Source of the DNA: Synechococcus sp. A10-1-5-1
GTDB taxonomy: Bacteria > Cyanobacteriota > Cyanobacteriia > PCC-6307 > Cyanobiaceae
Reading direction: 5' to 3'
NCBI RefSeq assembly: GCF_023115425.1
Contig: NZ_CP096032.1
Coordinates: forward strand, 186,001-250,000
DNA length: 64,000 nucleotides
Made by a program: the position numbers and the translations under genes. Below the pieces are notes generated by a model that worked only from the letters and a program-made list of their open reading frames with translations, searched no databases and was not told the origin of the DNA. This document shows, piece after piece, positions 14,565 to 17,338 of the stretch (within the stretch, counting starts at the first letter, position 1; each line of letters starts with the position of its first letter).

Positions 14565-14930
14565 ATCACTGATCTGCAGCGATTGACCGTCTCTCTACGC
14601 GGTGGTTTTGAACAGCAGGACGGTTGTCTTCTGTTCAGCTTCACCGGGCAGTTGGATGCCTACTCCGAGAAGCAATTTCTCGCCTTCATCAACGACCACC
14701 TCACCAGCACCCCCCAGCCGCTGGTGATTGACCTGAGCAAGATCGACTTCATCGATTCATCTGGTCTCGGTGCTCTCGTGCAGTTCGCCAAGCACTGCAA
14801 CGACCAGAAGATCCAGTTTTTGGTGGTCGGTAACGCGAGGGTCGTCCAGACGGTGAAACTGGTAAGGCTTGAGGAGTTCCTCCATCTCCAGCCCGACCTC
14901 AACACTGCCCTCGGATCAATCGCAGCCTGA
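14565..14930 (+). CDS. STAS-domain anti-sigma factor antagonist (RsbV/SpoIIAA-like)
   Basis: This single STAS domain has the beta strand FSFTGQLDAYS and the conserved phosphorylation loop IDFIDSSGLGALV, where the first serine of DSSGLG matches the serine phosphorylated in SpoIIAA/RsbV. The fold normally binds an anti-sigma kinase in a partner-switching circuit. The start is unclear: TTG at 14583 is the first standard codon, but coding similarity appears to begin earlier (TDLQRLTVSLRG), and an ATC at 14565 sits 9 bases after an AGAGG ribosome site. I give the longer form; an ATC start would be unusual. The RNase III-like gene downstream overlaps or abuts it. Confidence 0.85.
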   Translation: MTDLQRLTVSLRGGFEQQDGCLLFSFTGQLDAYSEKQFLAFINDHLTSTPQPLVIDLSKIDFIDSSGLGALVQFAKHCNDQKIQFLVVGNARVVQTVKLVRLEEFLHLQPDLNTALGSIAA

Positions 14931-15333
14931 TTCGTCCGCCTGGTTGATCCAGCTCCAACCGCCGGGATTGACCGGGGAGTTGGGTCCACTTCAACTCGCC
15001 TGGCTTGGTGATGCCGTCTGGGAGCTGCATCAGCGCATGCGCCGTTGCCGCCAAGCTGGGCGGAGCGCTGATCTGCACCGGGCCGTTGTCGCCGACGTCC
15101 GTGCCGATGCTCAAGCTGAAGCCTTGGATCGCCTGCAGCAGAAGGGGTTTCTCCTGGAGGAAGAACTGGAGTGGGTGCGGCGAGGCCGCAATAAGGCGGG
15201 CCGGGGGCCCCGCAAAGGCGAGGCCGGTGTTTATGGCAAGGCCACGGGATTTGAGACAATGGTGGGCTGGCTCTTTCTGCAGAACCCCAGCCGCCTTGCA
15301 CAGCTGCTGGCAGAACTCGAGGACGCCGACTGA
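14869..15333 (+). CDS. mrnC: Mini-ribonuclease III
   Basis: The protein is a compact RNase III domain without the double-stranded RNA binding domain. LGDAVWELHQRMRR carries the first acidic active-site patch, and the C-terminal KATGFETMVGWLFL carries the second. Bacterial Mini-III trims 23S rRNA precursor ends, and cyanobacterial homologues are thought to act in rRNA maturation. The N-terminus is uncertain: TTG 14869 overlaps the STAS gene by 62 bases, while TTG 14944 gives a shorter chain starting just before the conserved part; no ATG or GTG is available. It is followed after 21 bases by an rRNA methyltransferase gene, so the pair fits an rRNA processing operon. Confidence 0.88.
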   Translation: MRSSSISSPTSTLPSDQSQPDSSAWLIQLQPPGLTGELGPLQLAWLGDAVWELHQRMRRCRQAGRSADLHRAVVADVRADAQAEALDRLQQKGFLLEEELEWVRRGRNKAGRGPRKGEAGVYGKATGFETMVGWLFLQNPSRLAQLLAELEDAD

Positions 15334-15354: not shown

Positions 15355-17040
15355 ATGAGCCCCCGTTTTGATCGTCGTAAAGACCAGCGTTCGGGTTCTG
15401 GCGGTGGAAAACCTCCCCGTGCCGGAGGCCGTTTTGGTGGTGAACGATCGGGTGCAGAGCGCCGCGGCGATCGTTTCGGCGGTGAGCGGTCGAGTGCCGA
15501 CCGGGGTGGCGACCGCTTTGGAGGAGATCGCTTCGGTGGAGACGAGGCTGGTGGAGACCGTCCTGCTTACCGCTCAGGCGGCCGTCCTGGCGGTCGCCCA
15601 GCGGGCAGGCCCGGCGGCGGCCGACCTGGCTTCCGAGGCAGCTCCTCCCGTCCTTTCTCCCCCCGTGGTGAGTGGCGTCCCGATGGCGAAGACCGCGGTT
15701 CTGCCGGTCAGGGGCGTGAGCGGTTCTCCCGTTCAGAGGGACGGCCTGATAGCCGTGGCGATGCCTCCAGTCGCCCTGAGCGGCGTGGGGCTCGTCCCCA
15801 GGGTCGCCCGTTCTTGAAGGGCCGCGGTTCCGACCGCTTCCGTGATGCTGGCTCAGATTCTGGACGCGACGGTGGCCGCGATAGCGGTAGGGGCCGTTTT
15901 GCCGGACGTCGCGAGGATCCGCGCGGCGGTCGCAAACCGTTCTCCCGCGATCGCGATCAGGCCAAGCCGATTGCCGTTGAGGTTCCGGTCGGCGAAGCCG
16001 AACGGTTCAACGCCTATCCCGCCGATGACTTGATCTGGGGCCGCCACGCTGCCCAGGCAGCCCTGGAGAGCGGCCGTCCGGTGCATCGCATCTGGTGTAC
16101 CCCTGAGATGCGCTTCCAGCCCCGCTTCCTTCAGTTGCTGCGCGAGGCCAAGTCTGGCGGGGTGTTGGTGGAGGAAGTCACCTGGTCACGCCTGGGCCAG
16201 CTGACCAATGGAGCGGTTCACCAGGGCATCGTCATGCAGGCCGCTGCGGCCGACACCCTGGACCTGGGCAGCCTGATCGACGGTTGTCGTGATCTGGGCG
16301 AACCGCCCCTGTTGATGGCCCTTGATGGCATCACTGATCCTCACAATCTCGGGGCGATCGTTCGCAGTGCTGAAGCCCTGGGGGCCCACGGCCTTGTCCT
16401 GCCCCAACGGCGTAGTGCGGGGCTGACCGGTTCGGTCGCCAAGGTGGCAGCGGGTGCTTTGGAGCACCTACCCGTGGCCCGTGTGGTCAATTTGAACCGA
16501 GCCCTCGACAGCCTCAAGAACGAGGGTTATCGCGTCATCGGTCTCGCCGGTGAGGGCAGCGTTGCCCTCAGTGAGGCTGATCTCGATGGTCCCTTGGTGG
16601 TGGTGACTGGCTCGGAAGGCGATGGCCTCTCGATGTTGACCCGCAAGCACTGCGATCAGCTGGTGCGGATCCCGATCCGGGGTGCAACCCCCAGCCTGAA
16701 CGCCTCGGTGGCCACCGCGATGGTGCTCTACGAGGTCGCTCGCCGCAGTTGGATGCAGAAGATCTCCGGAGCCGCTCCTGCTCCTCGCATTGTGCGTCCG
16801 CAGATGCCCACGCCTCCTCCGCTGGAACTCCCCGAAGAGGACAGCACGGCCGTAGCCGAAGTGGCGATCAGCCCTGCCGAGGAGGTCCGGGCTGAACAGC
16901 TCGTGAACGATGTCATGGCTGAGTTCCAGGCTGATGCCCAACCCATGCCGGATCAGGGGGATGGGGCCGTTGAGCTTTCGGATGACTCCGCTGATGGGGC
17001 CGATCCCTCCGCGACGTTCTCCTCCGACATCAAGCTCTAA
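15355..17040 (+). CDS. rlmB: 23S rRNA (guanosine-2'-O-)-methyltransferase RlmB-like, with long RG-rich N-terminal tail
   Basis: Residues 1 to about 210 are a low-complexity region rich in Gly, Arg, Asp and Ser with repeated RFGGE/RFGGD units (residues 26-30, 40-44, 54-58, 59-63). The TrmH/SPOUT enzyme follows: a substrate-binding domain from about residue 220 (DDLIWGRHAAQAAL), then motif 1 ITDPHNLGAIVRSAEA (about 325), motif 2 VVTGSEGDGLS and motif 3 IPIRGATPSLNASVA. These bind AdoMet in a knot and methylate a 23S rRNA guanosine (Gm2251 in E. coli RlmB). An acidic tail of about 90 residues ends the 561-residue protein, against roughly 250 for E. coli RlmB. It follows the mini-RNase III gene. 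Confidence 0.93.
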   Translation: MSPRFDRRKDQRSGSGGGKPPRAGGRFGGERSGAERRGDRFGGERSSADRGGDRFGGDRFGGDEAGGDRPAYRSGGRPGGRPAGRPGGGRPGFRGSSSRPFSPRGEWRPDGEDRGSAGQGRERFSRSEGRPDSRGDASSRPERRGARPQGRPFLKGRGSDRFRDAGSDSGRDGGRDSGRGRFAGRREDPRGGRKPFSRDRDQAKPIAVEVPVGEAERFNAYPADDLIWGRHAAQAALESGRPVHRIWCTPEMRFQPRFLQLLREAKSGGVLVEEVTWSRLGQLTNGAVHQGIVMQAAAADTLDLGSLIDGCRDLGEPPLLMALDGITDPHNLGAIVRSAEALGAHGLVLPQRRSAGLTGSVAKVAAGALEHLPVARVVNLNRALDSLKNEGYRVIGLAGEGSVALSEADLDGPLVVVTGSEGDGLSMLTRKHCDQLVRIPIRGATPSLNASVATAMVLYEVARRSWMQKISGAAPAPRIVRPQMPTPPPLELPEEDSTAVAEVAISPAEEVRAEQLVNDVMAEFQADAQPMPDQGDGAVELSDDSADGADPSATFSSDIKL

Positions 17041-17092: not shown

Positions 17093-17338
17093 ATGACCCC
17101 CCTTCTTCGGCCTCTGCGCAGCATTGCCAACGGGTTTGGCATGGCTTGGTGGGCCCGGGTCGAAACCAGGCAGCCGGATGTGACCTACTGGTTTGGCCCC
17201 TACATCCGGCGCAGCAGCCTGGAGGCCGCCCTTCCTCCTTTCTTGGCTGATCTGCGCAGTGAAGGGGCAGCTGAGATCAACCATGCCCTGCTCAAGACCC
17301 GGCGGGCTGAACCCCTGACCATAGAGGCAGGGGGCTGA
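17093..17338 (+). CDS. DUF1816 family protein, 81 residues
   Basis: The small protein fits the cyanobacterial DUF1816 pattern: WWARVETRQPDVTYWFGPY followed by an amphipathic helix (EAALPPFLADLRSEGA) and a short tail. It is soluble. Members occur near phycobilisome or photosynthesis genes in some genomes, and some relate to CpcD-like linker domains, but the function of this one is unknown. ATG 17093 lies 52 bases after the methyltransferase stop; gatA follows at 17398. A short inverted repeat (GGTCC/GGACC, 17339-17352) directly after the stop has no T-run. Confidence 0.72.
   Translation: MTPLLRPLRSIANGFGMAWWARVETRQPDVTYWFGPYIRRSSLEAALPPFLADLRSEGAAEINHALLKTRRAEPLTIEAGG

Follow-up and report, generated by a model that had tools for sequence, protein, structure and literature searches.

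The RlmB homologue of Synechococcus sp. A10-1-5-1 carries a long N-terminal tail, translated on the evidence of its codons and predicted to be disordered, ahead of an otherwise ordinary methyltransferase core. A tail of this kind is near-universal in the cyanobacterial class sampled here and sporadic elsewhere in the phylum. On balance, we think that these first 220 residues of a probable 23S rRNA 2'-O-methyltransferase probably serve as a loose electrostatic tether, weakly positive and of mixed charge. The gene lies in a 64,000 nt stretch of contig NZ_CP096032.1 (positions 186,001 to 250,000), referred to below as the window. Coordinates of the features discussed are collected in Table 1. The original prediction of a long disordered tail on an RlmB-type SPOUT core held up, in that the tail is predicted to be disordered, is net positive and translated, and probably binds RNA, whilst its interpretation of that tail as RGG-like did not.

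Table 1. Features of the rlmB gene and its upstream neighbour; coordinates are those of the window
Feature	Coordinates	Strand	Evidence
Mini-III-like ribonuclease gene (RNase III domain)	14869..15333	+	PF00636, 81 bits
RlmB-type SpoU methyltransferase gene, 561 aa, ATG start	15355..17040	+	TIGR00186 score; best PDB match 1gz0 by sequence and fold
N-terminal mixed-charge tail, predicted disordered, residues 1-220	15355..16014	+	pLDDT, dN/dS, composition
Four copies of RFGG[DE] (residues 26-63), with a 15-nt tandem repeat (15505-15543)	15430..15543	+	
Conserved tail box RPFSPRGEWRPDGE, residues 99-112	15649..15690	+	Matched in same-genus tails
RlmB core: substrate-binding domain and SPOUT domain, residues 225-464	16027..16746	+	Domain/profile matches, AlphaFold, 1gz0 alignment
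Acidic C-terminal tail, residues 467-561 (95 residues, net -14)	16753..17037	+	Composition, AlphaFold
Predicted helix in acidic C-terminal tail, residues 507-526	16873..16932	+	AlphaFold secondary structure
C-terminal motif FSSDIKL (FxxDIxL)	17017..17037	+	C-end conservation in relatives

RlmB identity and gene neighbourhood

The window protein scored 214.1 bits against the RlmB equivalog model TIGR00186, above its cut-off of 160.15. Its closest solved relative in both sequence and fold searches was E. coli RlmB (1gz0), to which residues 224-464 aligned with 177.6 bits and, as the top fold match, with 40 % identity. A normal SPOUT enzyme followed by an acidic C-terminal tail had been predicted, and this arrangement was recovered, with the SpoU substrate-binding domain (PF08032, 64.8 bits) at residues 226-299, the SpoU methylase domain (PF00588, 135.7 bits) after it at residues 319-459 and the acidic segment beyond. 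Residues N331, R337, E421 and N449 of the three SPOUT motifs, which we take to be catalytic, were invariant across 45 chosen cyanobacterial sequences and aligned with identical residues in 1gz0. The protein fell below the strict cut-off of the narrower E. coli-type RlmB model NF008386 (203 versus 366 bits). Identity as YfiF was rejected (NF008117, 88 bits versus a cut-off of 267). Taken from these matches, the gene appears to encode an RlmB-type enzyme that probably marks ribosomal RNA, presumably 23S rRNA. The remark that core RlmB proteins are half the size of this one was accurate: the usual size is about 240 aa (TIGR00186 has a length of 240 and the E. coli 1gz0 chain has 253 residues). 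E. coli RlmB, which methylates 23S rRNA at Gm2251, shares the core but has neither the N-terminal tail nor the acidic C-terminal tail of the window protein.

The stop codon of the Mini-III-like gene lies 21 nt before the rlmB ATG. Across the 230 loci whose upstream sequence ran to 450 nt or more, a Mini-III-like homologue was present upstream on the same strand in 201, at a median gap of 23 nt (up to about 630), and was not found in the fetched upstream flank of the remaining 29. The presence of this neighbour in most loci fits a role in 23S maturation. Directly 3' of rlmB is a DUF1816 gene (17093-17338). DUF1816 homologues occurred within the locus in all 83 loci with core identity of at least 66 %, as well as in 139 of 163 other loci (at least 450 nt downstream), which suggests that Mini-III, RlmB and DUF1816 form a conserved trio. 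An ORF with a STAS domain (14583-14930) shares its last 62 nt with the longest Mini-III frame, and the true Mini-III start may sit further in.

Extent, predicted disorder and translation of the tail

Residues 1-220 comprise 22 % Arg, 23 % Gly, 15 % Asp+Glu and 3 % Ile+Leu+Val+Met, with a net charge per residue of +0.10. AlphaFold, supplied with an alignment of 45 sequences picked from the 252 loci described below, returned pLDDT values below 50 almost throughout residues 1-221 and of at least 85 for most of the core, from which residues 1-220 are predicted to be disordered. The tail had been placed at 15355-15990 with a length of 210 residues; the tail itself is real, but the core starts at residue 224-226 and the tail therefore ends near 16014. 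Amongst 398 crude ORFs of at least 100 aa in a 464 kb sample of the same genome (the window plus 20 stretches), the rlmB tail contained both the 150-residue segment richest in Arg and Gly (0.50, next 0.38) and the least hydrophobic one (0.07, next 0.08); the ORF caller was crude, and part of the remaining high-ranking entries seem spurious. Used as a query against the same genome at E values up to 10, a search in which low-complexity queries may be missed, the tail matched itself alone, and a search for plasmid copies gave no match.

Comparison of the tail with three near relatives over 210-215 codons revealed 16-19 changes at first, 16-20 at second and 106-113 at third codon positions; one such pair differed by 18, 20 and 113 changes over 210 tail codons. 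Tail dN/dS was 0.07-0.08 against these three relatives and 0.07-0.11 across the six pairs of four proteins; dS was at least 1.0 in five of these pairs, and the pair with an unsaturated dS (0.28) gave a dN/dS of 0.10. The dominance of third-position changes and the low dN/dS indicate, at the level of codons, that the tail is translated. An overlapping ORF of 149 aa (15368-15817) was rejected as the real product, as it is in the rlmB frame that changes between relatives fall mainly at third positions.

That the tail is instead untranslated, with an internal start giving rise to a core-only protein, we consider extremely improbable. Such a start could in principle use TTG 154 or TTG 226, which together with the ATG at residue 1 are the only in-frame ATG, GTG, TTG or CTG codons in residues 1-235. 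There is thus no start codon around residue 205, the position at which, according to the original prediction, use of an internal start would have refuted it. The TTG at residue 154 is not conserved, being CTG in two of the three near relatives, whilst that at residue 226 sits at the start of the core, where initiation would cut into the first core strand, predicted at residues 226-228. The strong codon-level constraint on the tail also speaks against this alternative.

Distribution of tails across the cyanobacteria

The core query matched at E of 0.001 or less in 59/60 relatives and 145/145 class genomes; in three genomes (G010, G035 and G128) a paralogue-like weak match stood alone among the matches listed. 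We collected 252 loci with a core match of at least 150 bits, a few of which represent the same genome under two names. A readable tail was obtained from 234 of these, 229 of them distinct. The 18 loci left out of the tail counts were either open at the 5' end (14) or closed with no usable start found (4). In 13 of them the visible stretch carried a net positive charge; the other five, at zero or below, comprise two that were refetched at full length (L040 and L047) and three short cut stretches (L076, L112 and L122).

A comparison of tail length and composition across cyanobacteria had been proposed along with the original prediction, and it identified the tail as a class-wide trait. Almost all of the distinct tails (225/229) begin at ATG. 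Their lengths range from 23 to 431 residues with a median of 148, as measured from the farthest ATG, which may make them too long in places (at least in L021 and L028). Net charge was positive in all 229, from +4 to +36. Two genomes of family f24, set aside at first as their loci were truncated and read later at full length (L327 and L328; G134 and G153), carry tails of 496 and 531 residues. In these, basic tandem repeats come first, with a charge of about +30 and +27 as obtained by subtraction, and are followed by acidic blocks of -32 and -61 between the basic part and the core, for an overall net charge of -2 and -34. Net-positive tails were found in all 32 families listed, these two f24 members being the exception.

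Outside the class but within the same phylum, 57/68 genomes had frames of at most 287 codons at the best match, leaving no room for a long tail; ten of these 57 were read, one of which (G196) ends at a contig edge. The 11 longer frames comprised four that were cut at a contig end, four with 5-62 residues ahead of the core and a net charge of -1 to +4, and three with basic tails of 106-143 residues (L307, L308 and L310). Since most out-of-class genomes have no room for a tail, RlmB evidently works without one. Actinobacterial RlmB also has a basic extension, although a shorter one. We take slr0955 to be the RlmB orthologue of Synechocystis. One paper names the Synechocystis orthologue in its protein list. 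A search of open-licence papers by title and start of abstract found none on the cyanobacterial RlmB tail, and the available portions of PMC11132505 and PMC10989914 hold nothing on it.

Conserved and variable properties of the tails

Among the 160 tails of at least 100 aa, the basic fraction (R+K) was steady at 0.245 (SD 0.028) and acidic residues co-varied with basic ones (r 0.78). Because of this covariation, net charge per residue is about half as variable (SD 0.024 versus 0.047 if independent), a result that stands on related tails with a shared history and without a phylogenetic null; the growth of repeats would by itself make acidic and basic content vary together. R/(R+K) tracked GC (rho 0.79), with Arg giving way to Lys as GC falls. 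Charge dropped towards the core (per residue, +0.13, +0.10 and +0.05 in the successive thirds of 112 tails), and the last 15 residues of the tail had a mean net charge of -1.5.

Dipeptide statistics were calculated against shuffles for 45 tails of at least 150 residues, one per genus. [RK]P and [DE][RK] occurred at 2.2 and 1.6 times the shuffled expectation, and acid-base-Pro, in reduced letters, at 4.9 times, DRP being the commonest tripeptide. [RK]G (0.72 times) and [RK][RK] (0.69 times) were depleted, and neither G[RK] (1.08 times) nor RGG (1.18 times) differed significantly from expectation. Charges were better mixed than in shuffles in 40/45 tails; in the window tail they were also mixed (charge segregation z -2.25). 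The common grammar of the tails is acid-base-Pro with mixed charges.

The original prediction had likened the tail to RGG-like tails, which in other systems bind RNA and can drive condensation. In such a reading, Arg-Gly repeats together with Phe would bind RNA and drive condensation as in the GAR domain of fibrillarin, a parallel that draws on the available part of PMC9957100. The window tail has the Arg- and Gly-rich composition expected of such a domain, and the RFGGE and RFGGD repeats that had been pointed out are genuine: RFGGE and RFGGD each occur twice (residues 26-30, 40-44, 54-58 and 59-63), giving four RFGG units versus 0.15 in shuffles (p 1e-4), and RFGG, RF and RP all exceed chance. 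The abundance of RG and GR dipeptides was correct as a count (25) but not as an enrichment, as composition-matched shuffles give 22.7 (p 0.32) simply because so much of the tail is Arg and Gly; RGG occurs twice versus 2.6 times in shuffles. GAR/RGG domains are defined by a continuous chain of at least ten RG/RGG units, above composition, whereas the window tail has ten RG units with a longest chain of three, versus 11.4 and 3.3 in shuffles, under our own reading of the published GAR pattern and not its authors' program. Across the class, the depletion of [RK]G in the long tails, the absence of RG from 71/229 tails, the exchange of Arg for Lys with GC and the well-mixed charges all run counter to an RGG-like reading. 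In favour of the original prediction are the enrichment of [RK]-aromatic pairs (1.40 times expected, p 0.02, seen in 26/45 tails), an aromatic content that is higher in longer tails (rho 0.71 across 90 genera and 0.36 across the 229 tails) and the finding, in the accessible part of PMC9324279, that net positive charge raised the condensation of mixed-charge domains in cells. The same part of that eukaryotic study also reports that alternating R-D peptides did not phase separate and blocky ones did. With RG at chance level and no long RG chain, RGG/GAR membership was rejected, and we regard an RGG/GAR-like function as unlikely; condensation is possible, but is not the best fit to the class-wide pattern.

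The window tail has the mix of basic and acidic residues and the Arg richness (Arg 22 %, D+E 15 %) that characterize Arg-enriched mixed-charge domains, a class that requires Arg rather than Lys and drives condensation; Lys replaces Arg in low-GC relatives. The domains of SNRNP70 and NELFE, as described in the accessible part of PMC9324279, share with RlmB tails well-mixed R and D/E and a slight positive charge; in contrast, RlmB tails exchange Arg for Lys in low-GC genomes and often have Pro or an aromatic residue after a basic one. The features of basic disordered N-terminal SpoU extensions are also present in the window tail (net charge per residue as above; pLDDT below 50).

Internal repeats were detected at p of 0.005 or less in 95/160 tails of at least 100 aa (117 at p <0.05), with units that differ between lineages. 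On a tree built with FastTree for 90 genera, with 45 on each side of a 150-residue boundary, the long/short state switched at least 26 times, as counted with no shuffled control. Repetitiveness and frequent length change of this kind would suit slack sequence, that is, a repeat-prone tail of slippage-driven length that must only avoid folding or aggregating, and that maybe aids solubility with no specific job. A tail dN/dS of about 0.1, the presence of a conserved box in every same-genus tail (see below), the steady basic fraction and the positive charge kept in all families listed, bar the two f24 members, weigh against this explanation, to which we assign a minor share of the probability.

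Short motifs and the acidic C-terminal tail

Within the otherwise fast-changing tail stands a short conserved box. The form [RK]P[FY]x[PA]RGEWxP was present in 22/22 same-genus tails, the pattern having been drawn from these same 22 (the cut L012 was left out), and its position varied from 27 to 103. A close match, RPFSPRGDW, was identified in L057 and L058, whose tails belong to a distant family. Beyond the genus, the box was matched at p of 0.005 or less in 2/57 tails with core identity of at least 66 % and in 4/152 others (9/57 and 21/152 at p <0.05); as a family-wide feature the PRGEW box was rejected, being weak and rare outside the genus. All 22 same-genus proteins also have MSPRF[DE] at or near their start, one of them with a longer frame upstream, and all 22 tails end in a conserved junction.

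At the other end of the protein, FxxDIxL or a near variant follows a variable acidic linker in 54/75 distinct relatives with core identity of at least 66 %; a different C-terminal pattern gave 60/81. The strict FxxDIxL pattern plus a stop codon had a single match in the genome, rlmB itself. Of the 21 proteins without FxxDIxL, 16 are encoded at loci whose GC content is at most 45 %, and the net charge of the C-terminal tail follows GC across the 75 relatives (rho -0.86). Low-identity members of family f1 (L041, L042, L044 and L053) have no C-terminal tail.

In sequence terms the FSSDIKL end looks like a docking hook. On a broader version of this idea, MSPRF, the PRGEW box and the C-terminal FxxDIxL would recruit partners, for example Mini-III or ribosomal proteins, with the repeats acting as spacers. 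Such a docking platform would account for the uniform presence of the box within the genus and its near match in a distant family, and for the C-terminal motif in most relatives beside a neighbouring Mini-III-like gene. Given the rarity of the box outside the genus, the 21/75 relatives that have no FxxDIxL and the f1 members that have no C-terminal tail at all, however, it strikes us as quite improbable.

Discussion

Under the electrostatic tether that we favour, we infer that the basic outer part of the tail would bind RNA and hold RlmB on rRNA or early 50S particles with no sequence specificity, and that acidic stretches, whether alternating within the tail, beside the core or in the C-terminal tail, would limit sticking to other RNA. 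The fall of charge towards the core and the occurrence of acidic blocks in two layouts, C-terminal or, in f24, between tail and core, support such an arrangement. The lability of tail length, which also fits slack sequence, the two tails that are net negative overall and the working of the enzyme without a tail in most of the phylum outside the class count against it. The available part of PMC8348266 reports on Nop15, likewise an RNA-acting protein with an acidic disordered segment, in which disordered clusters of acidic residues curb non-specific binding to RNA; unlike in Nop15, the acidic segment of RlmB is paired with a long basic tail.

A more speculative extension, unlikely in our estimation, is that cyanobacterial RlmB is a two-ended polyampholyte assembly factor of the large subunit. 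The basic tail would grip pre-23S rRNA near its site of synthesis and Mini-III cleavage and the acidic FxxDIxL tail would recruit or release a partner, a design that would have arisen at least twice, in C-terminal form in relatives of the window protein and between tail and core in f24. The acidic tips of SSB and Hfq recruit or release partners.

The enzyme fold of fibrillarin is unrelated to that of RlmB, and the parallel between the two is one of design, not descent. Fibrillarin is a eukaryotic rRNA 2'-O-methyltransferase with an N-terminal GAR domain that is lacking in archaea, as set out in the available part of PMC9957100; the window protein is likewise a probable rRNA 2'-O-methyltransferase with an N-terminal tail containing R, G and F. 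The two differ in that RG repeats in the window tail do not exceed chance and the grammar shared across the class is of DRP type.

A 2007 survey of the SpoU superfamily described basic disordered N-terminal extensions for YfiF and eukaryotic relatives only. Those extensions are, like the window tail, N-terminal, positive and presumably disordered, and belong to the same superfamily. According to the survey other members have no extension, whereas cyanobacterial RlmB has one and the window protein is not YfiF. The class-wide cyanobacterial tails thus correct the survey's claim, placing extensions in RlmB orthologues beyond the eukaryotic members and YfiF. They also amount to a natural collection of some 230 tails, spanning lengths of 23 to 431 residues and basic residues from Arg to Lys, in which it can be asked which properties (charge, mixing, aromatics) a disordered tail needs and which it can do without. 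Given the parallel with fibrillarin, finally, the idea that rRNA methylation convergently calls for such tails can be put to the test in a bacterium.
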